Below are positions 6,856-45,705 of a stretch of 64,000 nucleotides of DNA, one piece after another. The number at the start of each line of letters is the position of its first letter. Position 1 is the first letter of the stretch. The stretch is from Isoetes taiwanensis. Lineage: Eukaryota > Streptophyta > Lycopodiopsida > Isoetales > Isoetaceae. Below the pieces are notes generated by a model, which worked only from the letters and a program-made list of their open reading frames with translations, searched no databases and was not told the DNA's origin. A program made the translations under genes and the position numbers. The stretch is taken from positions 310,001-374,000 of the forward strand of contig JAJEKV010000298.1 in assembly GCA_021234155.1 (NCBI GenBank), given 5' to 3'.

Positions 6856-7614
6856 CCGTTAACGTCTTAATTAAACATTATAGTCTTGGACCCCTGCATG
6901 ATCCTGCTGGACTTCCCTTAATGCATGCAATTATATTAATTACCTTACGGTAATATTTTTATACTATCAATATGTAGCATAATAACAGGGGTTTTTTTTT
7001 GTATTTTTATACAGTTTTCTCTAAGGTTTTCATATGATTTGGTGGGCGTATTGCATAAGGTGTACTAATTGGTACATCTAGAGCGCACAAAGTATTTGCA
7101 TGCAGGTTTGTGCCTTTTTTTTATTTGGCCCTCCTTCATGGTCAAGATCAAATGGCTTACAACAAAAGCCCTCTTTAAAAAGACAAGATCGAACGGCTTA
7201 CGAGAAAAGCCCACTTTTGAAAAACAAAAAGAACAAAAAGAGGATCACATGCAAGTATCGTGGATATGCACTCTAGGGTTTTTATTTGTTGTCGAAACAG
7301 GAGATGCCACGATGGTAACGAAAGGCATGTGGGCTTGCTCGATTTTGCAAAGCTCTTGTACAAATCGGCCGGTCCACACCAGATTCAAGATCTTGCGGTA
7401 CAAATTTTGTTTCCGGTATGTTTAAGTCTTTCAGTTCTTGCTTCATTCTTCACCCCGTTTAAATGTCTCTAAGCAAGCAGAACTTGTCTTGTGGGGAACC
7501 ACCTTATGCAAGCTGTTTTCTAAATCTTCAATACTATCTGCCCGCATTACGTAGAAAAGCAAATAACGCACCAGGTATCTTGCGTTTGTTCTCATGTATC
7601 TTTGCTTCATACAG
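6856..7614. other. Spacer before the exchanger pseudogene
   Basis: No supported gene. An open frame at 7069-7425 has no recognisable domain and no family signature. The repeated phrase AAGATCAAATGGCTTAC / AAGATCGAACGGCTTAC (about 7144 and 7184) shows a local duplication of about 40 bases. Confidence 0.4.
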
Positions 7615-8690
7615 AATCTTTAAAGCCTCTGACAAAGGCAAAGATGGGGCCCTTTCTATCAGTGAGCTGAAATCTCTTGTTTTGAGTCTAGGAGTGTGTA
7701 CTCAGACAAATGTACCTGAAGATGATGAAGTCCAAGCCTGGTTGAGAGACTTTGATATTTCAAACAATGGATTGATTCAAAAGCAGGAATTCATAAATGG
7801 CATGTCAAAATGGATGAAGGCAGTAAAAGGTAAGTTGAACAGGTACCCCACTCTTGTACACAAGCCAGATTTTTGGCATAGCAGATCAGAGGTTAGTGAT
7901 CTGTAAATAAACCATGATTCCATATTTGATATTCTAATCTAGACATGGTTAACTTGGTGGGCAGGAAGCAGAGCACAATTTAAATATTACGTTACATGCG
8001 ATTCTGATGACAACAAAGAAGAAGATGAAGAGAAGAAACCAAAGGAGCGACCCACCAAGAGAGCAGCGATCACAAAGGCATCACTGCTCATTGTATGTGG
8101 AGCTGTGGTAGCAGGAATATTTTCAGATCCTTTGGTGGACACTGGATTCTATCACTAACTTCTCAACTGCTTCCAAAATTCCACCCTTTTTTGTAGCCTT
8201 TATAGCTACTCCACTGGCAACAAACTCAAGTGAGGCCATTTCCTCACTAATGTTTGCAAATTTCGGAAGAAGAAGAAAAATACATCCATTACATACTCTC
8301 AGGTATCTTTGCCTAAGATCTGCTTCTATTTAGTTATGCTAGTGCCCGTTTCGGTTCTAATCTTTGGTGTTTACAGATTTATGGTGCAGTAGCTCTAAAC
8401 AACACTCTATATCTTTGGATATTCTTAGCTGTAGTGGTGGCTCGTCATTTAGATTGCAACTTCTCCTCCTCAAGTGACAACCATTGCTATAGTGACTATT
8501 ATCATGGGGGCAATAGGAGGGTCTAGAACTAGTTTTCCGGTTTGCATAGGTCTAATAGCATTGGCCCTTTACCCACTTTCAATTGGGATGGTTGTTATCT
8601 TACCGCTGCTCTCTGCTCTCTGTTCTAGTGAGGAGAATGCGATCGGTGGGCCTTTGAATGGCGTTCAGATTGTGTGGCAATGGTAAGATT
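7615..8690 (+). pseudogene. NCL-type sodium/calcium exchanger pseudogene with EF-hands (3' part only)
   Basis: Exon-like block 7615-7829 encodes two EF-hands: loop one DKGKDGALSISE, loop two DISNNGLIQKQE. It ends in a perfect donor (AAAG|GTAAGT). Block 7965-8302 follows an acceptor CAG and encodes an acidic/basic linker, then a membrane segment with DPLVDT, IPPFFVAFIATPLATNSSEA and SLMFANF, the second Na/Ca-exchange domain. Block 8377-8690 encodes IYGAVALNNTLYLWIFLAVV and a further membrane segment. This order is that of plant NCL exchangers at the tonoplast or plasma membrane. At least three frameshifts break it: an extra G after DPLVDT, one in the A-rich run before TSITYSQ, and one near 8455. 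The N-terminal exchanger domain is absent. I infer a decayed partial gene copy. Confidence 0.8.
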
Positions 8691-13543: not shown

Positions 13544-15113
13544 TGTGACGTATATTATATTGCCACGTCACCCGTACATGTCACGGATGACATGTACTTG
13601 GTGGTTGTAGTAGGTTGCACCTAGGGGGCAACTTTGAATATTGTGCATGTTAAATAAACATACACAATTAATAACCCCATGGGCCCCATTGCCAAATGGC
13701 TAAACCCCATTTGCCAATGTTCTAACCTAACCCTAAGGGTTTCTATATAAGGGTTCCCCCTTAAACCCTAAACCCTTCTTTCTTCCTTGCATTTTAGGGT
13801 TTCCATAGAGCTCCTTTCTCATTTTGCATTTAGGGTTCTCTTGCGCCATTTCGGCCAAGTGAAGACCCCATTTCGCCTTGCTCGGCTCTGCAAAGCCGTC
13901 TTTGCACAATAGATCATCGAGTACAGCCATCTTCAGCAAGATCAGAGACATGGATGCGTTCCGAGGAACCGGAGCGGGTCAAGGACCAGGTATCTAGTCA
14001 TTCTGTTGTGTAAAGCCGTCTTTGGGCTAAGCAGTGAGGTAGTTTAGCATATTCATTTAGCCATAGAGGCCTTATAGATCCCGAGATCATAAGCCCTAAC
14101 TAAGGAACCTAACTCTGTATTTAGGTAGATAGATTAAGATTATATTCTTCATTTCAAGTTCCGTGATGATGATGGTATTTCATTCGGTGACCTCCATGTA
14201 TTGGGAAGGGGGGTAGAGACCCTAGCAGCCTTGTAGAAGATGATCCTAGAATAGTATCATTAGTACCCAATTATTGCGGCCTGTACGCAGGAGCCCACCG
14301 GGTTGAAGGTGGAGGGGCCAGACCGGCAGAACAAGGAGGTATTTGTCCCAACACAGATCAGTCCCTCTGGTGTGTAAAGCCTACCAGGGACTCTAGTGGG
14401 CTAGGTCTAATGCCTTGTCACTGCATGTGGGCAAGGCATGGGCTCGACACCCGTGGAGTGATGCGTCACTCTCCGTTGGGTTCAAGTCGAATAAGGGCAG
14501 TGGCCCTCTAGCCACCTGTGTTAGAGCATGGAAGCCTCTGGAGGGAGAGTGACCTTCCTCTTGCCTCATCGGGGCTGAGGAGATGCAACTCAGTAGTAGC
14601 ACTTTTGGCTATGTACCCGGCAGGCTATGGTCCAGTCCCAAGACTTATCATCCCACTTTGCAAAGTGTGTACAGGAGGGGCGGATGGAGTGGACTACCCA
14701 ACAACCATGTTCCTTTGCCAGCCAAATCCATTGCCATGAATTCTGTCTGCAACGACTTCTGGAGACCCAGCTGTCAGTCGAACCCCTTTGAGTCAGAGCC
14801 CCGGGTAGGATTCCCTTGTTGTTATTGAACATACTAATGATGTTGTATATGTGATGATGATGATGATGATGTGCTCACCCTTCGAGGTGATCGTATTTAT
14901 ATACTGTTAGTTTGTGCTCATGTTTGTTTATTCACGCTTCCGCAGATAGGTCGACCTGATGGGAGTCGGGTCAATGACACATCCATTCTTCCCTTCTGGC
15001 TCATTCCACTGAGAGTGGGGTCAGGTGGATGGCCCTTGTCAGTGTAGCTGCCAGGGGGAATGCTCCTCCTTCGAATACGATGGTGCATCGTATAAGGAGT
15101 AGGGGACGTCACA
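13544..15113 (+). repeat. 5' LTR (1570 bp)
   Basis: Starts TGTGACGT and ends ACGTCACA, a perfect 8-base terminal inverted repeat with the TG...CA boundaries of LTRs. The end sits one base before the primer-binding site. It matches the inverted LTR at 1-1560. It contains a promoter-like TATATAA at 13744 and a GAT repeat at about 14854-14870. Confidence 0.9.
13744..13750 (+). promoter_or_regulatory. LTR TATA box
   Basis: TATATAA in the upstream third of the LTR. The inverted LTR copy has TATAAAAG at the equivalent place, so the box is conserved in the family. Transcription would start near 13775-13785, defining the R region. Confidence 0.5.
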
Positions 15114-15114
15114 G

Positions 15115-15126
15115 TGGTATCAGAGC
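15115..15126 (+). other. Primer-binding site (initiator Met tRNA)
   Basis: TGGTATCAGAGC, complementary to the 3' end of plant initiator-Met tRNA and the commonest PBS of plant LTR retrotransposons. It begins one base after the LTR end. Confidence 0.95.
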
Positions 15127-15326
15127 ATGATCTTGGCAGACCAAGATCGAGCACTGACCATTTTCCCATAGGACTAACAGTAGATTCAAGCCTTGGGAAA
15201 TAGCCATCCAAGCAAGAGCCTCGAAAATTGTGATTTTTTTTCCAATTTCTAGTGTAGTAAATAGGTTAATGCTAAGTTAGTAGTAAGTTAGCAGAAACCC
15301 AACCTAAAATGGTCAAAAATAGTTGA

Positions 15327-15397
15327 CCCCTCACAGAGTGCGCCCAGACCCAATCGATTTGCAAACCAATTCGACCTTGGCGCACTGTGTGAGTGGT
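15327..15397. repeat. 71-bp palindromic repeat, copy 1
   Basis: Begins CCCCTCACAGAGTGCGCCCA and ends CTTGGCGCACTGTGTGAGTGGT. The two ends are reverse complements with a few mismatches and the centre holds a second, weaker palindrome. The same unit recurs at 17187, 17391 and 17596, with a decayed copy at 15538. Confidence 0.9.
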
Positions 15398-15537
15398 GGA
15401 CCCTTATTGACCTAGTAGATGTATAATTTAGCTAAACTAATGGTACAGTTCAGCTTATCTCCTTGATTCTAGCTAGTTTTGCATGTTATAACACTAAGAA
15501 ACCCCTTGTAAATTGAAAATTGGACCCAAGAGATGAC

Positions 15538-15603: not shown

Positions 15604-15813
15604 GGATGCTTTTTGGGTTAAATAACCTAATGTACCCCTCAGATCTTCACAAATACCTTCTAGATTGGCCCAATATGGAATTGCAAGTCCAAACCCTAAA
15701 TTTCCCCTACCTATAAATAGAAAGTTAGGGTTCCTCATTTGTCCCCAGCGCCTTCGGAGAACAGCTAATCCCAGAAAACGATTTCTAGGGCTTCGATTTC
15801 TTCAAACAAAGAC

Positions 15814-17046
15814 ATGGCCCGCACCAAACAGAGAGCCGGATTACTGTGTCCCCTGGACATGTCAGCGCCCAAGAGAAAGCAGCTCGACAAAAGGCCCGAC
15901 GGGCTCAGGAGCGAGCCGAGTGGGATCACGAGGAGCAGAAGGCCCAACCTAACCCAGGTACCCAGGAGGAGGCCCCTGAGCGCCAGGAAGAGGAGCGGCC
16001 CCGCGACCTTGAGGAGGGGGGTGAAGAACTCATAGCGGAAGAAGCAGCAAAGTTACTGCAGAGGGAGCTCGAGAGAGAGCTCTTCCAGGACCTTAACAAG
16101 GAAGACAAGAAGGAGAAGAAGAGGAAGCGGGAGCACGAGGACGGAGTAGAGAGGAAGTCGAAGGAGGAGCGTCGCAGGGAGAAAGAGGAGCGGCGCAAGA
16201 GGATGGAAGAGAAGAAGCAAAAGAGGGAGGAGAAGAGGAGACGACGGGAGGAGCGGGAGAAGTTGAGGGCAGCAAAAGAAAAAGCTCCTGCGCTGCCAAA
16301 GGACACGAAGCACAAGATGAAGACGACTCCCGCCAAAGGAGTCACTATCCAGGAGCCAGACCCCGAGAAGCCTCCATCCTCATCTGACACTGAGTCAGAT
16401 GAGGGAACTAGGATGCCCGACCCAACTGAGGCCTCGGGACCCTCAAACACAGCGCGGGAGGAGGAGGATGTGGTGGCAAAGGCACCCCCGTACCCTAGGT
16501 GGCCGTCGCCAAAACACCCCAGTGACAGTACCAAGAAGCCCAAGCCGCAGAGGAAGTCGTATGTACTCAAGCATGAGCTTGAGTACAGAAAAAAGTTAAA
16601 AGAGTACACTTCGTACATGAAAATGTACGAAGAATACTCTAAGTATTATAACGAGCATAAGGTCACATTCGTCGAAGGAGGCCGACCGACTAAGAAGAAT
16701 ACTCTGAAGCCGCCACCCGAGAGACCTGCTCCACCAAAGAAACCACAGAAGAAAAGGGCGGACTCCAAATTTTCCAGAGCTGCTAGGGAGATCCGACATT
16801 TTCAGCAGAGCTATGGACTTGTCATCCCCAGAGCGCCCTTCGCGAGGCTAACACATGAGATTTTGCAAGAATTCGATAAGTCCAAGCGAGTCACGGACGA
16901 TATGTTGCTGGCGTTACAGGAGACGGTCGAGCAGCACCTAGTGCAACCACTTCGAAGACTCTGTTGCATGTGCTATGCATGCAAAAAGAGTAACTTATAT
17001 GCCAAAAGATATAAGGCTAGCCCAATACATAAAGGAGGCATATTAA
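15814..17046 (+). pseudogene. Histone H3-like ORF carried by the retrotransposon (two frame shifts)
   Basis: The ATG at 15814 opens MARTKQ, the exact N-terminus of histone H3. A second frame (open from about 15816) then runs through a long Lys/Glu/Arg-rich region (about 15880-16330, probable coiled coil), Pro/Ser/Asp-rich segments, and from 16767 an H3 histone fold. That fold includes REIRHFQ, PFARLTHEI, EF and [11 protein letters not shown] at the positions of the H3 alpha-N, alpha-1 and alpha-2 helices. At 16954 the match returns to the first frame with [20 protein letters not shown], the H3 loop-2/alpha-3 signature, and stops at 17046 after AQYIKEAY. H3 is normally about 136 residues; this would be about 410. 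The MARTK start, divergent tail and LVIPRAPF recall CENH3, whereas MPKDI recalls canonical H3. The two shifts compensate, suggesting decay of one ancestral frame. No introns were seen. It lies 0.7 kb after the PBS, on the element's sense strand. Confidence 0.85.
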
Positions 17047-17186
17047 GACTGTATTAAATAAATTTTGTTAATAAATTTGTAATTTGGATGAGTTAATGTG
17101 TTTAATCAGGTGTAAATAGGATGTGTTATTACGTTCTGTACTTGGAATTAACAAATTTGGAGCAAAACCAAGTGTTTTTGGCCCCA

Positions 17187-17257
17187 CCCCTCACAGAGTG
17201 CGCCCAGACCAATTCGGTTTGCAAACCAATTCGACCCTGGCGCACTGTGTGAGTGGT
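17187..17257. repeat. 71-bp palindromic repeat, copy 3
   Basis: CCCCTCACAGAGTGCGCCCA through GGTTTGCAAACC (perfect 12-base palindrome at the centre) to GCGCACTGTGTGAGTGGT. First of three copies at 204-205 base spacing. Confidence 0.9.
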
Positions 17258-17390
17258 TGAGCATGGTTTGATGCCAAATCTTGTCCAAATGCAAAAAGTA
17301 AGTATACCATTCGACTCAGCTCACCTTAATTAGTAGGATTTGACCCCTAGTTTGTAGAAATTGGCCAACCCTAACTCAAATGGAGCCCCA

Positions 17391-17461
17391 CCCCTCACAG
17401 AGTGCGCTCAGACCAATTCGGTTTGCAAACCATTTCGACCCTGGCGCACTGCGTGAGTGGT
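17391..17461. repeat. 71-bp palindromic repeat, copy 4
   Basis: Starts 204 bases after copy 3. The inter-repeat sequence also aligns (CTTGTCCAAATG, AAGTAAG, TAGGATT), so the true unit is a tandem repeat of about 205 bp. Confidence 0.9.
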
Positions 17462-17595
17462 CGACCCCAAAACTAGACCAAAACTTGTCCAAATGAGGCA
17501 AGTAAGAGCTCAATCCGACCTATCTCGACGCGATATGTAGGATTCCATCTTTAGTTTCCATGTTTGGCATCATCCTTGACCCAAACAAGGCCCCA

Positions 17596-17666
17596 CCCCT
17601 CACAGAGTGCGCCCAGACCAATTCGGTTTACAAACCGATTCGACCCTGGCGCACTGTGTGAGTGGT
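17596..17666. repeat. 71-bp palindromic repeat, copy 5
   Basis: Starts 205 bases after copy 4. The centre GGTTTACAAACC keeps dyad symmetry with one change. Confidence 0.9.
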
Positions 17667-18426: not shown

Positions 18427-19935
18427 ATGGCAACCACTGTATTCAGGTGATGGTACAGCGCCACAGCTCATGTGGCCGAGGCTGACATCAAGTCCGTCTT
18501 CGCTGTCTTCCAGAAGGAGCTTGATGTGGAAGCCACCATCAACGCCACCCCCTTTTACCAAGACATTATATCTGAGTTCCATGCCAAGATAGGACCATCC
18601 TTGGTAGAACTCCCCCGTTGCATAAGATATTTTGCCCCCAGCATGGCCCTTAAGTCAGCTCTGCAGGACATCTCAAACATAGACAAGTACTTAGAGAACA
18701 AAGCAGTTCGCCTACCCAATTACATGTCTATCTCTGTCAATAGGAGGAGGTACTTTTCCTATATAGCAGCCATAGTTATTTTCCTATCTCTTCGAGGCCA
18801 AACCCAGATAGAAGAACCCTCAGTGCAGCCCTTAGAAGTTGAACCCATGGCCATGGCCGGCTATGGCAGCAGCAAAAGAGGAGCAGATGCGTCTCGAGTA
18901 CGAACAAGAGGGAGAAGAGGAGGAACACGGGTCGGATTCAGAAGACATCGACCTAGAACAGGAGAGGCAGCAACTCCAAAGCTTTGAAGAAGGACTCAGA
19001 GCAACAAGAAGAGCACTACCACTTGGGCAAGGAATAACAAGCTTGACCCCAGTGTTCATAGGAGGAGAAGCATACTTAAGCCTCCATGACATTAAAAATC
19101 TTCCAGAATGCAGAGGTAGGGGTTTCAGAGTGGATGAAATTCTGCATCTCCTACGGCAACAACCAGATCTCGACGACTTCATCGATCGAGAAATTCAAGA
19201 CTTCTCCATCAAAGATAAGGGAAGCTGTGACATACACGCGCTTAGACGTCATCGCATTATCGAGGCTTACATGTGCATCGACAAATGATGATCGGCGGAA
19301 TTGCCGGGCCGGAAGAAGAGTTCCTGGCAATCCAAGAGCACATGAGCATCAAGGGAAAGTCGACATCAGCACTCTTACCTAGCTCATCAACAACGGCACT
19401 AGGGCAGCATGGAGGCAGCATCAACCTGAGGAAATTAGTGCACCAGGACTTCAGAAAACTAGAGGAGGTGCAGCTTGACGAGTACGCGGGAAGACATAGG
19501 GCAACCTCGGCATCTGGTGAGGAAGCAGGGCATGATAAATCCCTCAGGTACTACCTTCCATTACTCCTAAACAGAAGAATAGCGGTTATATACCGCCAAT
19601 TCAGCCCACGGGGTGAAGAAGGGGTCTTTATGCTTATCGCCCTCTCAGGAATTGGAAATCATGCTCGATTTGCCCCAAACATCGACGATGCCATCCATAT
19701 CAAGAGAACGATAGCATTAAGTATTTTCGACTTCGCAATCCCCTACAGACGGCAGGGCAGGTTGGCAGTGACGGCAGCATATACTTCGGATAGGAGGATC
19801 GAGGACTTAATGACAACGCTCCAAGAAGGCACGGCCACAAACATCCTCAGGAACCTAGGGAGAACAATCGGCACGGCCCAAGTGAAGAAATTTTTAGAGG
19901 ACAACCCCGACTACTTGAAGAAATTCCAGGAATAA
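18427..19935 (+). pseudogene. Unrecognised retrotransposon ORF upstream of gag
   Basis: ATG at 18427 (MATTVFR, then an in-frame TGA) leads into a continuous coding-like segment from 18472. It shifts frame near 18890 into an acidic stretch (EEEEHGSDSEDIDLEQERQQ), and shifts back near 19262 to run to a stop at 19935. Joined across these shifts it would be about 500 residues. It has no zinc knuckle, protease or reverse-transcriptase motif, and no obvious membrane or signal segment. The C-terminal third (RYYLPLLLNRRIAVIYRQF) looks like a folded, mixed helix/strand domain. I do not recognise the family. Position and strand make it part of the element; an extra structural protein or a captured gene are the main options. 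Confidence 0.6.
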
Positions 19936-20107
19936 AATTAGAAATGTTTTAAAAATATTCTGATATCTTGGATGTATAAGTATTATTATGAATGTAAATG
20001 GTAATCTCAATTATGTTCTCTTGGTATATTTATTTCTCCCCACAATTATATCATCAAACAACCAATGCAACGACAAAACAATGAACTAATCATCAGAGTA
20101 TAATCTA

Positions 20108-21505
20108 ATGTATGCAGCTAGAGTACCTAGAAATGTTGAACAACAAGGACATCATGACCAAGAGCGTACTCCACCAAGGCGTTTCCAGCCAAGAAACCCA
20201 CGCCAAGAGTTTGATGCAAGAATACCGAGGAGGAAGAGCTATCCGATTCGGGATCCGACATTCATGAAATAAGGGCATTGCTGGCAGTAGCAGCAACAGG
20301 AGGGCAAGATCAGAATGTGCCATTGCCAGAAACACCGGCCGACCGAACAGTGCAGCAAAGGAAGAGAAGCTGGAGAAGAAGATCCCCTAGCTCGGGTTCC
20401 TCCGACTCTAGTTCAGACTCTGATTTCGGATCGGAAGAGCAGGAGGAGAGACAGGACCAACGAGACGACCCAAACCGTGATAGGGGCAGGGCACAATATG
20501 ACTATCAGAAGAAGGTCGACTCAGCGCTTAGCAATGTCTAGAAAGCAAGAAAGCTCCAGCAGTTCTCAGGAGACACCAGATCTGGAATGGAAGCAGAAGC
20601 ATGGCTTGATGAAATGAGGGAATATGGTAACGCTTATAGCATGAAGGACAAGGACAAAGGCAGAGTAGCTACAGCCAACTTGAAGGGAGCAGCTAGGATT
20701 TGGTGGAAGGGCTATGCCAAAGCACATGGACTGAGCAGGGACAGTTGGAGGTTCAAAAAGCTTGCTAAGGCATTCAAGCGCCATTATGTACCAAGAGAGC
20801 ATAAGTGCCACATGATGCAGCAGTTTTGAAAGGCACGCAGTGGAGGGTTACATAGAAGGGTTGAATGAGGAGATCCGGAAACTAGTAAGAGCAATCAACC
20901 CTAGGACGGTGTCAGAAGCGGAATCCAAAGCAGTCAGCTTGCAAGGGACGGAACCCCAAGAGAATGCACCAAGGCAGCAGTATTACCATGACAAGGGGAA
21001 GGGCACGGGAAGCTATAGCCCAAGAGCGGCGAGCCCAGTAGCTAGCAAGCCTCAGTACAATGCTAATTACGGGAAGTAGGGCAATGCAAAATCTGGCAAG
21101 CAGGATAAGAAACATTTGACCTTCAAAGAGCAAGGAGGGGGATCCAACTATTCCAAGGCAGTGAGGCAGTTTTTGCAATCCATTCCCAAAGAGAAGAAGC
21201 AGGAGTGCATAGAGAAGCAGTTGTGCTTTAGGTGTTTCCAACCAAGGCATAGGACAAACAATTGCCCCTTGATGATGAACGTAGCATTAGCGGAGATGGG
21301 ATGGGAGACACCAACGGAAGCTGATGACGACGATGCACCGGACTATATTCATGGTAAGTGCCATATTTTTGCAGCCATTGATACGGAGAACGCAAAAAGC
21401 CAGTACCAAGTAATCTCCATAACGGGGAAAGCCAAGGAGAAATCCTTCATAGTCTTGATAGATACAGGGAGCACCCATAACTTCGCATCGCCAAGAATGG
21501 TATAG
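20108..21505 (+). pseudogene. gag: gag polyprotein with zinc knuckle and start of protease (broken)
   Basis: ATG at 20108 starts a basic segment that meets a stop at about 20270; the adjacent frame continues. A gag core follows at 20590-20830 (AWLDEM, GAARIWWKGY, WRFKKLAKAFKRHYVP), the usual retrotransposon-gag pattern. Stops at 20539, 20827 and 21077 interrupt it. At 21224-21265 lies a zinc knuckle, CFRCFQPRHRTNNC (CX2CX4HX4C, intact). The aspartic protease motif LIDTGSTHNF follows near 21453-21482. A stop at 21503 separates this from the pol frame. The key zinc and catalytic residues remain although the frame is broken. Confidence 0.85.
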
Positions 21506-21508
21506 ACA

Positions 21509-22563
21509 TTGAAACTTAAGCCCTTGAAGTCAAAGCCTAGACCAGTTGTGTTGGCTAGTGGAGCAATCAGGCATACAGCAGGAAAAAGAATTAACTTCAA
21601 CGTAGACTTGCCGGGAGTCAACGTAGCATTGGGAGCTGAAGTGATGAACATCGGAAAATATGATTTGATAATAGGAATGGAGTATCTCGGACCAGCAGGA
21701 GCCATCATTGATTGTGGCAAGCGTAAGGTGACTTTAACAATGCCGGAAGGCAAGATCATCGAGATAGCAGGTAAAGAAGTAACACCAATTATGCAATGCA
21801 TGTCGAGTCAGAAATTACTTAAGTGCATAAGGAAGGAGCAAGTGGCCTACATCTTCAGACTCCAAGCAGACCAGGAAGGGACGGAGGAAGAGAAAGAGGC
21901 CAAAGCATTGAAAAAGCTCCCAAAGCCTATAGCAAAGTTGATAAAGAAATTTCATGACTTGTTTCCTGATGAGATCAAGCAGCTTCCACCCTACAGAGGA
22001 GTCGAGTGTGAAATAGCACTTGAACCAAGGACTAAGCCAACTAGCAAGGCACCTTATAGAATGTCAACCGAAGAGTTGATGGAGTTGAAGAAGCAACTGC
22101 AAGAACTGCTAGACCTAGGGTTCATAAGACCTAGTGTCTCTCCTTTTGGAGTGTCTATCCTTTTTGTGAAGAAGAAGGATAGAAGCCTTAGGATGTGCAT
22201 TGACTACCGTCAATTAAATAAGCACACCATTAAGAATAAGTATGCCTTGCCTAGATCAGATGATCTCATGGACCAGTTGCAGGGAGCGAAGGTATTTTCT
22301 AAGATAGACTTGAGATCAGGTTATCACCAGATCAGGATCAAGGAAGAAGACATCCACAAGTCGGCTTTCAGAACGAGATATGGCCACTATGAGTTCACGG
22401 TGATGCCATTCGGTTTGTCCAATGCGCCAGCGGCTCTCATGAGGCTTATGAACGATGTATTCCACGAATTCTTAGATGCTTTCATCATAGTCTTCTTCGA
22501 CGACATCCTAGTTTACAACAAGTCTTTGGAGGAACATGCCCAACATTTGAGGAAGGTACTTGA
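21509..22563 (+). pseudogene. pol: pol: protease remainder and reverse transcriptase, cut by a transposon
   Basis: The first part (to about 21800) is the rest of the retropepsin fold, with DLIIGMEYL. The reverse transcriptase follows: [69 protein letters not shown] and the catalytic box FFDDILVY. Both active-site aspartates are kept. The frame is open for about 350 codons, then is interrupted at codon LE of KVLE by a DNA transposon. The open frame continues at 26497, where joining the flanks restores the expected KVLEKLRRHQL. Confidence 0.95.
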
Positions 22564-22734
22564 AAGTTGCATTTAATTAAAGTGGGACAAATCTTGAATT
22601 TTGGGACTCGGACTGAAAATGGGACTCATACTCAATTTTTTTTTTGAATTGAGTGCTAGAATAGAATTTTGTCTTAATAAAACAACAATAACATTTACAA
22701 ACAACAAACCGAGAAAAGAAGGGGAGTTTGAAGG

Positions 22735-26496: not shown

Positions 26497-28430
26497 TTGA
26501 GAAGTTGAGGAGGCATCAACTCTTTATGGCTATCTAAGTGTCACTTCGCAACGGAAAGAGTGGAGTACTTAGGGCATGTGATCACAGCAGAAGGCATCTC
26601 CACCACTCCCTCGCCAAGATCGGCAGTTGATTGATTGGCCCTTAACCAAGAACACACATAAAGTAAGGAGCTTCCTCGGTCTAGCGTGCTATTATAGAAG
26701 GTTCGTCAAGAACTTTGCCAAGGTAGCAGCCATTGACGGACCTCACCAAAGTGGAAGATAAAAGATTGGGCAATTCATTGGCAAAAAAGCAAGGCCCGTA
26801 AAGCTTTTGACACATTGAAATAAGCATTGACGACGGGCGCCAGTTTTGATCTTGCCAGACCCGGCCAAAGATATGACGTTAGTAGAATAGCGACAGGTGC
26901 AGTCCTCATGCAGGAGGAAAGGGTAGTGGCCTATGATTCGAAGAAAATGAACGATGCGGAGCATCGCTACACAACACATGATCAGGAGCTTCTGGCTATA
27001 GTAATAGCTTTGAGAATTTGGAGGCACTATTTATTAGGAAGAAGATTCCAGCTAGATACGGATCATCAAAGCCTTCAATACATATTTACACAACCACTCC
27101 TCAATTTGAGGCAAAGGAGGTGGATGGAATTCCTTGAAGAATATGACTTCGAGGTAACTTATAAGCTAGGCAAGCTCAATGTGGTTGCAGATGCTCTTTC
27201 TAGGAAGTCTTTGGCCACGAGAACGCATTGTAATGCAATTTCGACGCTCACGAGCGAGTTTGGCAAGAAGATTGAAGAAAGCTTGCCAACAGATCCCGAC
27301 TTTAAAGAAGTTTGGGCAAGTCTTTGCAAGGAAGCCAGGACCGACAAGGAAAGAGAAATGTTCAGGCACTATAAGAAGGAGAATAACTTGCTATACCATA
27401 AAAACAAATTGTGTGTACCCGAATCTTCAGAAGTTAGGAAGCTAATCCTACATGATACATACAATAGTTCCATAGCAGGACATGCATGGTTTATGAAGAC
27501 ATACTTCAAAATTAGAAGCACTTACTTCTGGCCCGGCATGAAGAAGGAGATAGCAAGGTATATTCGTGAGTGCCAAATATGCCAGCAGACAAAGGCGGAA
27601 CAACTACGAATTCCAGGTGCCTTGGAACCATTGCCTATGCCAAACGTTAAGTGGGAGGTAATAAGTATGGACTTTATAACAGGACTCCCAAGAACAGCAA
27701 GGGACAAAGATGCCCTGATGGTGGTAGTAGATAAGTTGTCAAAGATGGCACACTTTGTGCCGCGGCAGACAACAGATATTTTGATTAGACACGGCCGCTC
27801 TATTTGTTGAGGAGATTTTCGACTCCACCAAGCATGCCGAGGGAGATAATTTCAGATAGGGACCGCAAATTCATGAGTGCCTTTTTGGCGGGACCTATTC
27901 ACCACCATGCATTTAAGCTTTCGATGAGCACGCATATCATCCCCCAAACGACATGGTCAGACGGAGAGGACCTAATATGATCATCAAAGATATGTGAAGA
28001 AGCTATGTTTGGAACAAGCAATCTAAGTGGGATGATTTCATCCACTTAGTAGAGTTCACAGACAACAAGTGCCAAAAGCGGTGAGTCGCCGCAGATGAGT
28101 CCCTTTGTGATCAATTACGGGTACCAATGTCTTACCCCGGATACTTGGCACAATCCCGTGTCCAAGGTAGAAGTCTCTCAGCAAATGCTTTCGGAGATGC
28201 AGCAGTTGGTGGAGGAAGTGAGAGGATACCTCCTAGCAGTAAGAAGTAGGCAGAAGAGCATCGCCGACAAGCATAGAACAGTAAGGGAATTTCAGGTGGG
28301 AGACAACATATGGTTGAAGATCAAGATGAAGCAGGCCAAGCTCCGCATCGGCAATTGCAAGAAGCTTGCTCCAAGATGGGCTGGACCTTTCAGGATAACC
28401 AAAAGAGTAGGTGCCCAAGCCTACAAGTGT
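26497..28430 (+). pseudogene. pol: pol continued: RT end, RNase H and integrase (decayed)
   Basis: After the transposon the RT thumb resumes (HFATERVEYLGHVITAEGIS), then shifts frame. An open segment at 26827-27807 carries RNase H (YDVSRIATGAVL, HDQELLAIVIALRIWRHYL, DTDHQSL) and the integrase HHCC zinc finger (LILHDTYN, GHAW, CQICQQTKAEQ). The first core aspartate of integrase follows in SMDFITGLP. The remaining integrase core (27811-28090) is full of shifts and the middle is partly lost. A last open part (28095-28430) carries MQQLVEEVRGYL, QVGDNIWLK and LAPRWAGPFRITKRV, the gypsy GPF/Y region. The sequence diverges right after AYK, so no chromodomain is present in this copy. Confidence 0.9.
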
Positions 28431-28507
28431 TTGGGGTTTGGGTTCGGGAACTCCTGCAAGACAGCCCTCTGTGAGGACCCTTGGATCAAACAGGAGAATC
28501 CGGGAGC
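28431..28507. other. Junction between plus-strand pol and reverse-strand LTR element
   Basis: About 77 bases that fit neither the gypsy integrase tail nor the adjacent LTR; a rearrangement point. Confidence 0.4.
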
Positions 28508-28966
28508 TGTGTCACGCGGGATTTGCAAAAGAAACAAAGGAAAAGGAAAAGAGAGAAAACAAAAGGCGACAATGAGAACACAATGATGGGAACAAAACTC
28601 TTTGATATCAATGATGATACATGAGCTCTCGTAATAGAGAGAAACAAAATGGAGACAAGACCAAAAACTCGTCTAAAAATCGAATGCTAGCTCTACTCCT
28701 ATATATAGTACAATGGCCTGGAAGGAGGCCTGATTTGCAAGAATGTTGGCGGTGCCTCTTGAAATGCCTGAAATCACGCTGATGCTGATGGTCCGTCACT
28801 TGTCTGTTCTCGGGCCCGTGGCCTTCTGCGTGGTCTGCTGCTTGGTCTGCTGCTTGGTCTTCTGCTGGGCTTTGGACGACTGACCTGCACCTGACTGTGG
28901 ATCCTTGCTCTTGACCTGGTCCGTCGTGTGCATGAATAGTCCTGCACTGTGACGCATAGACTCACA
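28508..28966 (-). repeat. 3' LTR (459 bp) of the reverse-strand element
   Basis: On the reverse strand it starts TGTGAGTC and ends GTGACACA. It contains a TATA box (TATATATAG, 28700-28709) and is preceded by a purine tract. It includes a short CAGCAGACCAAG repeat (about 28835-28860). Confidence 0.75.
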
Positions 28967-30524: not shown

Positions 30525-31655
30525 CTAAGACGATGAAGGCACTTGAGTGGAGCTTTGAAGCCGAAGAGTGGCAATTTCTGTATCATCTATGATCTTCTGC
30601 TTCTGGGCTTCAAGGAGTTGAGCCTGGAGAGGCGTGATCTGACTGTGCAGCGTGGAAAGTTGGTCTTCGAGAGAAGTGATGCGCACATTTCGCTCACCAA
30701 GGTCTTGGAGCTGGTTGTTATAATTCTGAGAAAGCTCCGTGTACATGGTTTGGAGATCGGCAAGGAGTTTATCTTTGTCTACTAGGAGTTTGTCCTTATC
30801 CTTGTTGGTAGCCAATAGTTCCTAAATAGCCGATCAGAATCGAGCCTCGCTGATCGGGCCGAAAGCGCTAGTCCGTTCTCGTTTCGGGCCTTTGAGAGAT
30901 TCACGGGCCTGTAAAAGAGCCTCGTGCTTCTGTTGAAGTTTTTCTTCAAGGGATTGAACTTCCTTGGTGGCAGCTTGGAGATCCCTGTGAACCGCTTCCG
31001 TGGCCTCCATGTAAGCTTGAATGCCATTCATGAAGGTTTCTTGCGAGTCCTGAAGCTTAAGGACAGCTGCTTGTACATCCTGCTGATATTGATGCAGGGC
31101 TTGGCGAGAAGGTGAAGGTGCGGGGCCCTGTTAATATTAGACCTGCGGTGACGCCCGAGAAACATGATGAGAATTTGAGCGCGTGGTTTCCGATGAGGAA
31201 GAGGAGACAGAAATAGGTTTTTCTTGATTTTGAGCGTGACCAGGAGAAGGATGAGGGCATGAAGTTTCGGCATGAAGATTTTGGTCAATGGGATTTGAGG
31301 GCGCTTTGGTGGATGCTTGAGACGTGGTGTTTGGGCAAGTGGGTGAACCCTGACTGGGGAGAGGGAGACAATGACGGAGGATGGCCTGCAAATGAGCACC
31401 TATGCTAGATTCAAGGCCCGAAGAAGGGGCTGCTCGGATGCGATCAATTTCATGAAGGAGGCGGAGAAACAAAATTTGAGGCCAATCAATGGAATGCGTG
31501 GAGTGGATGGCCAGGACAACAATGTTGAAAAACTGCTTATTGATGTGGGTATTCTTGATGGAATACCCATAGAACTTTCGCCACAGAAATTTGACAAAAA
31601 TATCATGGGATTTGGCAATGTTCGTGAGACGATGAGTGTTGGCCTGATAACCCAC
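30525..31655 (-). pseudogene. Helical/coiled-coil N-terminal part of the reverse-strand element's ORF
   Basis: From 31655 downward: a helical segment (FVKFLWRKFYGYSI, INKQFFNIVVLAIH, ILFLRLLHEIDRIR), a Ser/Pro/Asn-rich low-complexity linker (about 31140-31390), then long heptad-type segments (about 30525-31040). The heptads include LEEKLQQKHEALLQARESL, DKDKLLADLQTMYTELSQNY and LEDQLSTLHSQITPLQAQLL. Stops at about 30835 and frame shifts between segments show decay. The first segment loosely recalls the plant-transposon protein domain found in Athila-type 3' ORFs, which is only an impression. Confidence 0.55.
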
Positions 31656-32366
31656 TGGAATATGGCCGGAGCATTACATACACCAAAGGGCATCACTTGA
31701 TAAGCGTAAGTTCCCCAAATAGTCACAAATGCTGTCTTCTCCCTATCTTCTGGTCTAATCAATACTTGGTTATACCCCGAGAATCCATCCATAAATGAAT
31801 AAACCTCTTGACCCCCTATAGCATCTAACACCTCATTTGTGAAGGGAATAGGTAAGTGGTCTTTTCAAGTAGCATCATTCAGCTTTCGATAATCAACACA
31901 TATACGTATTTTCAAGTTTTTCTTATAAACACACACGATGGGTGATACCCATTCACTATAATCCACAGGATAGATAAAGACAACCTTAGTCTACAAGGCT
32001 TTTGCACTACATATTTAGCATTAGCATAGAGCTCAATCTTATGCATGCATAATGACGGGTTGATGCTTTCAGATCATCATATGACCACGCAAAAATGTCC
32101 TGATATTTTGAAAACAAGGCAACACATTTGCCATACAAATCCCCAATGACATTAGCCCCCAACTTTATTGTCTTTACTACCTCTCCTTTTTCGAGGTTAA
32201 TTTCTTGCAATTTTAGGAGGTTGTGAGAAGGTCTCATATTGACTAGTTTTTTGTGCAGGTTTCTTTTCCACCTCGACATCTTGAATTGTGCACTTTGTGA
32301 AATAATCAGGATACTTATCTTGTTTAGTATCTTTTTCTTTATCGTCTTCACATTCTTTCTACACAT
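31656..32366 (-). pseudogene. Partial gypsy reverse transcriptase and preceding linker
   Basis: The linker frame (32366-32007) contains YGKCVALFSKYQDIFAWSYD, the conserved stretch just before RT. The RT block 31831-31660 carries EVYSFMDGFSGYNQVLIR, EKTAFVTIWGTYAYQV and MPFGVCNAPAIFQ. It stops before the catalytic YxDD box, because the sequence switches to the other element at about 31655. Confidence 0.85.
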
Positions 32367-32421
32367 CTACTTGGTTAACATCTAAAACACCCATGAAATT
32401 TAGAATCGTATCCTCCAAATC

Positions 32422-32593
32422 TTTTTTTTTTTTTTTTTGGAGTCAAGGTGGGGTTTATATTCATACTAAAATCTTAAATACATATGGCGTATACCATAGG
32501 TGGCATACATATAATAAAAATTGCACATTCCTAATAATAGGAGCTGTGCTATCAGTCAGATCTAAGTCTGATCCATTCAAAATACATCTAAGT
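32422..32593 (-). mobile_element. Short truncated retroposon with poly-A, flanked by 15-bp TSD
   Basis: On the reverse strand a 170-base body ends in CACCTTGACTCC and about 19 A residues. It is flanked by CGTATCCTCCAAATC at 32407-32421 and 32594-32608, a perfect target-site duplication. The body holds no ORF, so it is either a heavily truncated LINE or a SINE; I saw no Pol III A/B boxes. Confidence 0.85.
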
Positions 32594-32756
32594 CGTATCC
32601 TCCAAATCTACAACTGTGTCATCACTAACTCCATGCATACCTCTTTCTTTCAAGGACATATCCTCTTCTGTCTCATTAGAGGATGCTACATTCATCACTA
32701 CTTTCACTATCCTCGTCACTGAAATCAGATTCTACTTCAAATTGTGCGACAACTTT

Positions 32757-33227
32757 TCACATTTCACTCACCGCAATTTCCACCCTATTATTACCATCAC
32801 CAATAACTAAAATTCCCATATGCCAATCATGTATTGCTCTAGCTTGCAACAACCATGGCCGGCCTAATAATAATGGATAATAACATACACTGGTGGTAGC
32901 TCTCAGAACTACATAGTCCACATAGAACACAAGATATGCAATCATGGTTTTTATGCCTGTAATCATGCCTAAAGGTTTGACTCGCCTCTGATAAGCCATC
33001 CTTACTCTAGAATAAATAAGAGAAGGTGCATGTAAGTCTAATCTTCGAAGAGTTTCTTCTGGCATAATGTTAACCCCAGACCCTCCATCAACCATAGCAG
33101 AATTGAGCCCTACCTCCCCTATAACAACATGCACAGATGTGGATTCCATATTGAACAAAGAGAGCCATAAGGAATTAAAGATACATTCTTTTGCAATCGT
33201 AAAGCCGCAGCCACTTCCTTTCGGCAT
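32757..33227 (-). pseudogene. Gypsy aspartic protease region
   Basis: The open frame carries NSAMVDGGSGVNIMPEETLRRL, the retropepsin active site of Athila/Tat-type elements with DGG in place of DTG/DLG, then LLGRPWLLQARAIHDW, the second conserved strand. Length and order fit a protease placed between zinc knuckle and RT. The frame is intact here but the rest of pol is broken. Confidence 0.85.
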
Positions 33228-33519
33228 GGAGGGGATAAGGACAATAATTGCGCAAAGGTGATAGTGGGCCTGATATTACCTAGATCGGCCAATATATCAT
33301 AAGTAGGCATGTTTCTAGAGAGTTTCAAAATTTTCTTATATTTCCTTTTACTCCTTGCTAGTTTCCTAGGTTACTTTCTCGACTCTTCCTCATTTACAAG
33401 GGGTAAATTTCCAATATCCATAATGCCTTTCAGTTCTTCAATTGTAGGGGTGTCATGCAAGGTCTCCTTGGGAGTGTCTCGGGTTTTCCCTAATCCTAAG
33501 AATTCAGGTGTTTTAAATC

Positions 33520-33801
33520 TCACAATCTACTCTTCCTCTGATTACTCGGATTTATTTGCATTTGATAGCTAGGACATGTTACCTCCTCTATTGGCTCACA
33601 CAAATTAGAGTCAAGGGTTGTTTCTTTCCCCTTAGACCCTTTATCTGCAGAATGTGATGGCAATACATGAGGAAATCTATCTTGTGAGTGTGAACCCTGA
33701 GTATTACAGATGCCACATACAGGTTCAAAGCCTACTTCTTTTTGTGGATTGGGCCAATTAGTAGCTATGTTGCCAACTTCATGGCACCTATAACATGTCA
33801 C
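33520..33801 (-). pseudogene. Zinc-knuckle part of gag with lost ligands
   Basis: CYRCHEVGNIATNW aligns to the CX2CX4HX4C knuckle, but the His is Asn and the last Cys is Trp. A second Cys pair follows (CGICNTQGSH). The loss of two zinc ligands is a sign of decay. Confidence 0.75.
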
Positions 33802-34002
33802 TTGCCGTTGAGGCCTTGTCGGTCTTGGTGATGGTCTTAAAGATCAATTGTTTGCATCCTTTCTATTTTGCATAGAAGGGTCAGCCACATAAACAAGTAT
33901 TAATCGTGGACTGTCTTTTGCATTTGTCTGGATATAATAACTAGGGACACTAGAAGGTTGCATGAATGGCCTTATATTAGTTCTAGGCCCATTACCTCGC
34001 TG

Positions 34003-34965: not shown

Positions 34966-36185
34966 TTAAATAGAATAGAATATGTTTTTATCGTCTACAG
35001 AGACCAATTGGCCTATGGGACCCAAAAAGAGAGAGCAGCAAGCGTATTACTTCCAGGATTAAAAAACCCCTGCCCCGAAGGGTTTTCGAGGGAAAAACCT
35101 TAGCAGTAATAAGAATGCTGGTATACTATACAATCGTATATGACAATTCAATGCTGTACCAGAGGACACAACTGACTCCGTGTATCTAGAACCTCCTGGA
35201 AGTATGATCCCAACAAGCCCACGGAGGCTGTTTCAACAGCTCATGCAGGGGCTGGTGAGGCACAATTAACTGAACATATCATGCCGGGATATGATCGAAC
35301 ATTGGGAGGCCAGAAGGGCATGACATTCATCCTCAATGACGGCCTGTTAACAACATCGACAGATCCTGTCCTCATGTGGCTCCCGAGTCCATCGCCCCAT
35401 CTCAATGCGGAGGCGGTGTGCACCCATGCAAATGGAAGCTAAAAGTCTGCGCTTCTTCGTGGGCAAATGAGTGCGCAAATAGTGTTGTGGGCCTCTTGTG
35501 GGCACGGGGTTGACTTCACACCAGTGCGCCATTTTGGCATCGTGGCCAGGCATCTGCATCCCAGAGCTTGGCAAGGAAGCTAGCATCTAGATACTGCCGC
35601 AATGCATTGTGCTCTTTTTTTGTCCGTACCTACTCACATCTGTATGTCTGCACATTCCAACGTGAGAACCACTGAGCTTGCTTGTCCTTCCAGCAGGCTT
35701 TGAGGCACTGTGGACCCATTGCTACTGCCAATGCAAGGTTGGGCAATCGAGCATCACCCATACCAACTACCTTCTGAAAGTAAATGATATGGCGTTTCAG
35801 TGCAACCCTTTGAAGGGGTAGAAAACCTGTCTCCTGGAGCAGGATCTGACATGGAACTATAGATTTCACCCCAAGTGCCCGTGCTAAGAAGGCCTTCTGT
35901 ACCTGCTCCAGATCATTCCAGGTGGTGAGGGATATCACCGGACCCCATACCTCTTCCCCATATAGGAGAACCGGCTCGACCAAGGCCTTGAACAGGTGTG
36001 ACTGGTGGCCCCAGGCATACAACTCTACCTTGTGGCTATTGCTCTGCATGGCATATAGTGCTTTTTAGCATGTTGTGACAAGCAACCTGATGGAAGCATC
36101 CCACTGTGTGGTAGTAGAAAACTCGATCCCTAAATACTTATAGAAAGAAGCTACCTCTACATCTTGTCCCTGGTAAGTGAATCTT
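34966..36185 (-). mobile_element. LINE fragment B (3' end) inserted in the gag gene
   Basis: The reverse-strand frame 36049-35630 encodes the C-terminal part of a LINE reverse transcriptase: FKALVEPVLLYGEEVWG, QKAFLARALGVKSIV, LLQETGFLPLQRVAL and RLPNLALA. Upstream to about 36185 KYLGIEFS is readable. Toward the 3' end a zinc-finger-like region (RICRCC, DECHALL) follows. It ends in GTCTCTGTAGACGATAAAAA then a short TTCTA tail (34966-34983). It is homologous to LINE A at 1820-2835 and less decayed. It separates two pieces of gag (36290-36180 and 34830-34555), so it inserted there. Confidence 0.85.
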
Positions 36186-45184: not shown

Positions 45185-45705
45185 CTACTCTTCCTGCCCC
45201 TTGAAAGGCATAGCAGGAAGGGTTGTGTGTGGAGGATTTAGAAATCCTTTGTGTAGGCTGTCATCTACCAAGAAAATCCTACCATGGTAGGTAGGAAAGT
45301 TCTCAAGCACAACCTTCAACTCCTTGATATGAAGCTTCTTCACTGCAATGCTTGGATGGTCAATTGTGTAGCATTGCTCCTGGCCATAAATTTTTAAGAA
45401 CTTAGTCTGCAAATCCAGGAACAAGGCAGCTACCATATCCCTTGTGTTGTGAAGAAGAGAGGCACTCCATATTACAACTTCAAATTTTTGCAATGCCCAC
45501 TCCACAAACTCATGGTATCCTGGTTTGCAAATTAGGTACTTGTTTGCAGTCTTCTCCACAACAAGATGTGTATCGGGTCGAGGCAGTACCTTTTCTCTGG
45601 TTCTCCTCTGTTGTGTATGTACCAGCACGCCATTTATATCCAGAACCATAAGCTTCTTCGAAGGTTGCCATCCTTCAACCTCTTGCAACACTATGCTAAA
45701 CTATG
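45185..45705 (-). CDS. FCP1/NIF-like HAD phosphatase domain exon
   Basis: The reverse-strand frame starts after an acceptor-like TTTAG at about 45706 and runs to a stop at 45187. It contains KKLMVLDINGVLVHTQQRR (HAD motif I), a conserved YLICKPGYHEFVEWALQKF, VVIWSASLLHNT (motif II Ser) and RIFLVDDSLHKGFLNPP (motif III Asp-Asp). This is the FCP1-homology domain of plant CTD-phosphatase-like/TIM50-like proteins. The motif I second aspartate (DxD) is Asn (DIN), as in the plant DLNG/DING subfamily, so catalysis may be altered. The C-terminus ends soon after motif III, about 30-40 residues earlier than usual, so either a later exon was missed or it is truncated. It probably belongs with the upstream exons to 47466. 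Confidence 0.75.

Follow-up and report, generated by a model that had tools for sequence, protein, structure and literature searches.

A histone H3-type gene ahead of gag in a high-copy Ty3/gypsy chromovirus family of Isoetes taiwanensis

The stretch of Isoetes taiwanensis DNA analysed here (the window; 64,000 nt, contig JAJEKV010000298.1, positions 310,001 to 374,000 of the forward strand) contains an open reading frame (ORF) resembling histone H3 within the remains of an LTR retrotransposon. An earlier note on this DNA proposed that the H3 homologue is a gene of the element, whose protein might seed a chromatin state or target centromeres. The locus raises the question of whether a retrotransposon family carries its own H3 gene, which kind of H3 this is, and what its product could do for the element.

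Layout of the window element

In a Pfam profile search of the window, the ORF at 15789-17054 (+) matched the histone family PF00125 over residues 308-403 (E = 1.6e-12, 48.2 bits against a curated cut-off of 26.4), and the frame 16942-17046 covered positions 95-121/122 of the same profile (E = 3.3e-6). The top PDB sequence matches of the ORF were histone H3 (E = 3.7e-9), and translation from the ATG at 15814 begins MARTKQRAG, in agreement with the MARTKQ start and C-terminal H3 fold described in the earlier note. The ATG and the C-terminal end share one frame and the middle lies in another, so the two compensating frame shifts reported before are real and this copy of the gene is broken. The ATG lies 699 nt downstream of the primer binding site (PBS), and gag and pol pieces follow 3' of the ORF on the same strand, which confirms a position about 0.7 kb after the PBS and ahead of gag. 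The PBS is presumably of the plant initiator-Met tRNA type. The features of the element are as follows.

13544..15113 (+): 5' LTR, TGTGACG...CGTCACA (self-comparison of the window and comparison with lineage D relatives)
15115..15126 (+): primer binding site TGGTATCAGAGC (motif shared with relatives, counted below)
15326..15403 (+): leader hairpin repeat unit (self-comparison of the window)
15814..17046 (+): histone H3-type ORF, the first gene of the element, with two compensating frame shifts (PF00125, PDB matches, translation)
15814..15843 (+): H3 tail start, MARTKQRAGL in the window copy (translation; compared with open relatives below)
16710..17046 (+): H3 fold region (PF00125), spread over two frames (profile search)
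17181..17666 (+): three hairpin repeat units after the H3 ORF and before gag (self-comparison, RNA folding, unit alignment)
18451..21505 (+): gag region in several frames (ORF translations; homologous pieces in relatives)
within 21080-21505 (+): zinc-knuckle-like CFRCFQPRHRTNNC (motif by eye)
21506..22576 (+): reverse transcriptase (RT, PF00078) with a protease-like stretch ahead of it (profile search)
26824..27810 (+): RNase H and integrase zinc domain (PF17917, PF17921; profile search)
28053..28586 (+): integrase C-terminal SH3-like domain (PF24626; profile search)

Profile searches gave no Pfam match in the gag region of the window, where the zinc-knuckle-like motif was recognized by eye, no RT or RNase H match between about 22.6 and 26.8 kb, and no chromodomain (PF00385) in this broken copy. 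Self-comparison revealed no 3' LTR of the element within the 64-kb window.

The H3 ORF is flanked by hairpin repeats of about 80 nt (15326-15403, 17181-17262, 17385-17467 and 17589-17666). RNA folding of one unit gave a minimum free energy of -37.1 with a z-score of -6.15. In an alignment of 34 different sense units from the window and L030-L038, from which units matched on the opposite strand alone were left out, 465 of the 476 cells that represent the 14 stem pairs are paired. The apical part of the hairpin is rewritten by subfamily and, judged by eye, is still palindromic. The repeats are possibly a packaging or translation signal.

The window also holds other repeats and gene-like frames. 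The minus strand at 1-1560 holds another LTR of this family, and its inverted segment 1-1528 is 83% identical to 13544-15113. A purine-rich stretch directly precedes the start of this LTR, which probably belongs to a second element as the 3' LTR, with the interior of that element at higher coordinates. RT- and gag-like frames of another retroelement (31400-33843, minus strand), a frame resembling a plant sodium/calcium exchanger-like EF-hand region (7463-7906, plus strand) and an FCP1-type phosphatase-like frame (45185-45700, minus strand) were named by eye. The segments 1816-2822 and 34969-35950 form an inverted repeat pair with 72% identity over about 1 kb.

Copies and lineages in the genome

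The assembly searched contained 1,658,258,908 bases in 1,110 contigs. The window ORF matched at least 98 other places with E ≤ 1e-93 and 54-81% protein identity (54-82% over the 99 other rows), which excludes a chance frame; 99 of 46,508 candidates were scored, and these candidates may include charged low-complexity matches. The 100 rows obtained comprised the window itself, the 98 other places and one row for a further piece of a place already counted. In a genome search with PF00125, 150 of 8,705 candidates were scored and all exceeded the cut-off. Fifteen rows reached 164-165 bits, and the eight of them that were read are canonical H3. Among the 135 non-canonical rows, 55 lie in frames of at least 300 aa and 36 in frames of at least 400 aa. 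Together with the 28 of the 98 places whose matched part is free of stops, the latter provide the open relatives of the dead window copy that the earlier note had considered important to find.

We read 28 of the 135 non-canonical loci (20 picked for long frames and eight with short frames), and by their sequence all of them look like element copies. An N-terminal domain is common to 19 of the 28 in the alignment, and the eight short-frame copies match this domain as well as the H3 fold. Two of the copies, L011 and L010, are 89% identical over 7.7 kb. A search with the N-terminal domain of lineage A (see below) yielded 2,807 first-look candidates, not all of them confirmed, of which 150 were scored, all with E ≤ 3.1e-85; the genome counts are accordingly lower bounds and candidates and do not represent a census.

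The 19 aligned copies fall into lineages A (12 copies, MPRFK-type start), B (six copies, ME-type start) and C (one copy), in which an N-terminal domain of about 200 aa is joined to an H3 fold sharing 83-89% identity with host H3. PF00125 scores of five of these copies were 125.8-148 bits. The ARTKQ start is absent from all 19, and their N-terminal domain matched no Pfam family above its cut-off and no PDB profile (best E 0.63). Lineage D, which includes the window copy, has a different architecture with an H3 tail, a charged insert of about 280 aa and a divergent H3 fold (46-52% identity to host H3, median 50.3%). Twenty-six D loci were read (the window copy is L029), and the 16 with a start and fold in a single open frame were kept; L029, L030, L032-L036, L039, L053 and L054 were dropped. 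The open D copies begin with MARTKQT in 15 of 16 cases and with MARTKQTARK in 13. One additional locus, L063, is about 47-49% identical to A, B and C proteins alike, and from its sequence looks like a further H3-carrying lineage. Two scans of viral contigs found no relatives.

Whole-element structure

In 20 nine-kb copies of lineages A-C, an LTR piece was found upstream of the H3 ORF in 16, gag/pol downstream on the same strand (within 9 kb) in 15, and the PBS in 14, with 596-761 nt separating PBS and ATG in those 14. In one copy, L010, another LTR fragment lies past the H3 ORF and ahead of gag-NC (L010:1419-1560) and is perhaps a nested insertion. Among nine D relatives with flanks, the leader and the post-H3 repeats were shared with the window in all nine, the LTR end was present in six and the PBS motif in five. 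Thus, other elements with the same leader do carry the ORF, as expected for an element gene, and so do three other lineages.

One lineage A element (L012+L055, in two pieces) could be followed end to end. It consists of a 5' LTR (1684 bp), PBS, H3 ORF, gag-pol frame, integrase end, purine tract and 3' LTR (1757 bp), and is flanked by the 5-bp target-site duplication (TSD) CAATC. The duplication lies outside the LTRs of the whole element and does not flank the ORF itself, which the earlier note had named as the mark of a one-off insertion. The long gag-pol frame is broken by a stop, and the integrase end includes a chromodomain (PF00385, E = 2.4e-8) besides an SH3-like domain. Both the TSD and the chromodomain were observed in this single lineage A copy, while the order RT, RNase H, integrase was found in it and in the window copy. 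The two LTRs have diverged by a K2P distance of 0.0455, which would correspond to an age of about 2-3 million years if we assume the rates usual in plants, roughly 0.7-1.3e-8 substitutions per site and year, which may not hold for Isoetes. A high-copy family of Ty3/gypsy chromoviruses carries this H3 ORF as its first gene.

Selection on the H3 fold

Selection was analysed as dN/dS by the Nei-Gojobori method using our own script. The H3 fold gave ratios of 0.028 in A (66 pairs), 0.014 in B (15 pairs) and 0.068 in D (74 usable of 120 pairs), far below 1 in all three lineages, and the purifying selection that the earlier note had asked about is evident across element copies. Other parts of the ORF gave 0.120 for the A N-terminal domain (39 usable of 66 pairs), 0.180 for the D linker and 0.060 for the D tail, with a median of 0.000 over the first ~18 tail codons in an 11-copy core (47 usable of 55 pairs). 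Further downstream, the ratios in A were 0.231 for gag-NC and 0.059 for the protease start (the 7 of 19 A copies reaching there, these 19 being the 18 of the enlarged set below plus L011) and 0.134 for protease 2-130 (five copies); in B they were 0.423 for gag-NC (five copies) and 0.127 for the protease start (four copies). The pooled synonymous difference in the A fold is 0.46-0.48 per site, so its conservation does not reflect recent copying. The pair L021 and L022, 94.5% identical over 7.9 kb, has no nonsynonymous differences in the fold at a pS of 0.11.

These values are biased downward in dN since most copies were picked by histone score or open frame. Addition of six broken A copies (18 copies in total) and of one broken B copy left the fold ratios at 0.030 and 0.014, respectively. 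Among the 150 places found with the N-terminal domain, eight that were absent from the PF00125 list were read, and an H3 fold follows the domain in all eight, in some of them frame-shifted; these copies gave a pN of 0.131, a pS of 0.543 and a median dN/dS of 0.119 for the fold. As a control, seven D copies with broken or split frames, chosen for similarity over the whole ORF, gave 0.196 for the fold, 0.355 for the tail, 0.314 for the linker and 0.110 for the middle. Values above those of open copies are expected if post-insertion decay and misread frames are mixed in. The tail stretch of the window copy itself has a pN of 0.281 and a pS of 0.283.

Relationship to H3 and CENH3

The earlier note described the protein as H3 or CENH3-like. 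In an alignment of 35 element copies with CENH3 and CENP-A sequences, loop 1 has the length found in H3 and is shorter than in CENH3. All of the best 60 of 177 PDB matches of an A protein, and all of the best 60 of 175 of a D protein, were H3, while the best 60 of 164 matches of the window copy included one CENP-A (Cid). Lineages A-C form one clade, with support of 98/98 in one tree and 89/81 in another, which adjoins H3.3 with weak support (65/68). Lineage B carries the pair H87-L90, which we take to be diagnostic of plant H3.3. A CENH3 identity of A-C was rejected, given their median identities of 84-89% to host H3 and 53-56% to Arabidopsis CENH3 and their H3-length loop 1. In one tree, which carries a long-branch warning, lineage D grouped with Arabidopsis CENH3 (96/94). 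The tree of H3 and CENH3 proposed in the earlier note thus placed A-C with H3 and D, on long branches, with Arabidopsis CENH3, and the label CENH3-like is not supported for A-C and is doubtful for D, whose loop 1 is short and whose 60 best PDB matches are H3. A single clade of all element copies was not rejected (p-AU 0.127 and 0.059), so that H3 may have been captured once or twice.

In each of A, B and C, the most frequent residue is that of host H3 at R49, K56, R69, R72, R83, C110, H113, K115, R116, T118, D123, L126 and I130, positions that we assume to serve the H3-H3' bundle, H4 pairing and DNA contact. Differences between A-C and the host concentrate at 57-64, 86-89, 101-107 and 124, with 121 added in B. 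The patch 86-90 is the site where chaperones distinguish H3.1 from H3.3. Lineage D keeps R69, R83, C110, H113, K115, R116, T118, D123, L126 and I130 in 16 of 16 copies and R72 in 15 of 16. It retains the loop-2 residues, is changed at R49, K53, K56, R63 and 109, and its alignment has no counterpart of H3 43-46. Entry of D into nucleosomes is doubtful given the missing 43-46 segment and the changes at R49, K53, K56 and R63.

Possible roles of the element-encoded H3

The best overall explanation, to which we give about an even chance, is that the gene encodes a captured host H3 fold fused to an N-terminal region specific to the element, which would thereby be brought to chromatin. The 5'-proximal ORF on the element RNA would be translated and the protein would enter the nucleus, where the retained H3 fold would pair with host H4. 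The fusion would then join host (H3-H4)2 units or nucleosomes with its N-terminal region borne on chromatin, and this region might tether the integration machinery of the element or alter the chromatin of newly inserted copies. That the RNA is translated and that the protein reaches the nucleus, pairs with H4, joins nucleosomes and benefits the element is inferred from the sequence. Since they keep nearly every contact residue, the A-C proteins are most likely nucleosomal, or at least H4-bound, H3 fusions carrying an element domain to chromatin. Lineage D may instead rely on its tail, serving as a histone decoy, or on H3-H3' contacts.

A decoy, D above all, would soak up readers and writers of H3K4/K9 with its tail and blunt silencing outside nucleosomes. 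The MARTKQTARK start of most open D copies, the median ratio of zero over the first tail codons of the D core and the altered DNA-contact positions of the D fold all fit such a role. However, the fold would be superfluous for a tail decoy, and A-C lack the ARTKQ start, yet the fold is their best-conserved part. The tail is also changed in 3 of 16 D copies, and its ratio rises to 0.355 in the seven broken ones, where frames are partly misread. We regard the decoy as rather unlikely.

We assign a similarly low probability to the possibility that the element places its own nucleosomal H3 variant on new copies or target chromatin, to be read by its own machinery such as the integrase chromodomain. 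By eye, the chromodomain of L055 lacks the first and third aromatic cage residues, which is the pattern of group II chromodomains (PMC3605345, available in part). With this pattern, reading of a methylated element tail by the element's own integrase is possible and is not favoured.

Less probable still is a packaging protein whose basic H3 fold would coat the element cDNA or RNA in the particle, like a viral basic protein. The fold of the A copy L022 is indeed basic (net charge +9), and the gene stands first in the RNA and is under selection; purifying selection is compatible with a decoy or a packaging role too. But conservation extends beyond charge to specific residues assigned to the H3-H3' and H4 faces, the D fold of L042 has a net charge of +1, and the element has its own zinc-knuckle-like gag region (by eye).

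An origin of lineage D from host CENH3, with targeting of centromeres, ranks marginally lower, and we regard it as improbable. It would account for the tree position next to Arabidopsis CENH3 and for H53, F54, P63 and A65, which D shares with that protein. Against it stand the long-branch warning, the H3-length loop 1, the closer median identity to host H3 (50.3%, against 46.1% to Arabidopsis CENH3) and P121, which D keeps, unlike the Arabidopsis protein.

Insertion of processed H3 genes, one-off or repeated, with no role in the element, would suit the intronless sequence and the broken window copy, but is rejected as very improbable because the gene is multi-copy, holds a constant position in copies of all lineages read, retains its fold in all eight copies selected through the N-terminal domain, evolves at a dN/dS far below 1 and, in the lineage A element followed end to end, lies inside LTRs that carry the TSD at their outer ends. 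The element thus captured H3, keeps it at a conserved position in many open copies and, in the lineage A copy with the TSD, integrated as a whole, so that the H3 homologue is an element gene, as the earlier note proposed. The fusion of an element domain to a captured H3 fold, our preferred reading, suggests from these sequences an element-encoded protein that enters or imitates host chromatin.

Comparison with known systems

The nearest known case is that of fungal hAT DNA transposons with histone H3-like genes, described in Pyrenophora tritici-repentis (H3L, PMC3538342) and Pseudocercospora fijiensis (PMC6710886). In the accessible text of these papers, 26 H3Ls with tail insertions and variable helices are reported for Pyrenophora, and all H3 copies of P. 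fijiensis except the original are RIP-inactivated. In both fungi and Isoetes, a host H3 has been captured and multiplied by a mobile element. However, the fungal elements are DNA transposons with tens to hundreds of copies, whereas the Isoetes family consists of LTR retrotransposons that have diverged into several lineages and show purifying selection. A hAT transposon with H3L was ruled out for Isoetes, where the gene lies in an LTR element with reverse transcriptase. Culex Helentrons bear broken histone fragments, according to the accessible part of PMC4067079.

Orchid Ty3/gypsy elements with an ORF for an AlkB-type m6A demethylase (PMC9289625, accessible part) are similar in that an LTR retrotransposon took up and retained an additional ORF for a host-type regulatory protein, but this is an RNA demethylase instead of a histone, in another gypsy family. 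The bracovirus histone CpBV-H4 is said to join host nucleosomes (PMC5423620), and other viral histones are reviewed in PMC9145170, both available in part. Viral histones likewise involve a parasite's histone acting via its N-terminal tail, but CpBV-H4 is an H4 and the parasites are DNA viruses; the accessible text of the review contains no word beginning with retrotranspos, retrovir or retroelement. Plant chromoviruses with group II chromodomains (PMC3605345) share the gypsy pol and integrase chromodomain; their account, in its accessible part, has no histone gene, whereas in Isoetes the H3 ORF precedes gag.

The word "histone" is absent from the accessible text of a paper that deals with extra ORFs of LTR elements in plants (PMC7264820) and occurs 0 times in the main text, as available, of the Isoetes taiwanensis genome paper (PMC8566536). 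In open PMC papers, judged by titles, opening abstract lines and accessible passages, no LTR retrotransposon encoding a histone was found, consistent with the expectation of the earlier note.

The histone gene of these Isoetes LTR retrotransposons is thus real, spread through the family and under selection, and the elements are very unusual in their cargo, diversity and strength of selection. Plant transposon silencing works largely via marks on histone H3. Here, a mobile element encodes the silencing system's own substrate, which purifying selection has preserved as the element multiplied. This opens direct tests of whether parasites can supply their own nucleosome parts. Evolution has also reshaped the tails and the chaperone-facing residues (86-90) in this family, which makes it a source of natural H3 variants, and gene models annotated as "histone H3" in such genomes could be transposon genes.
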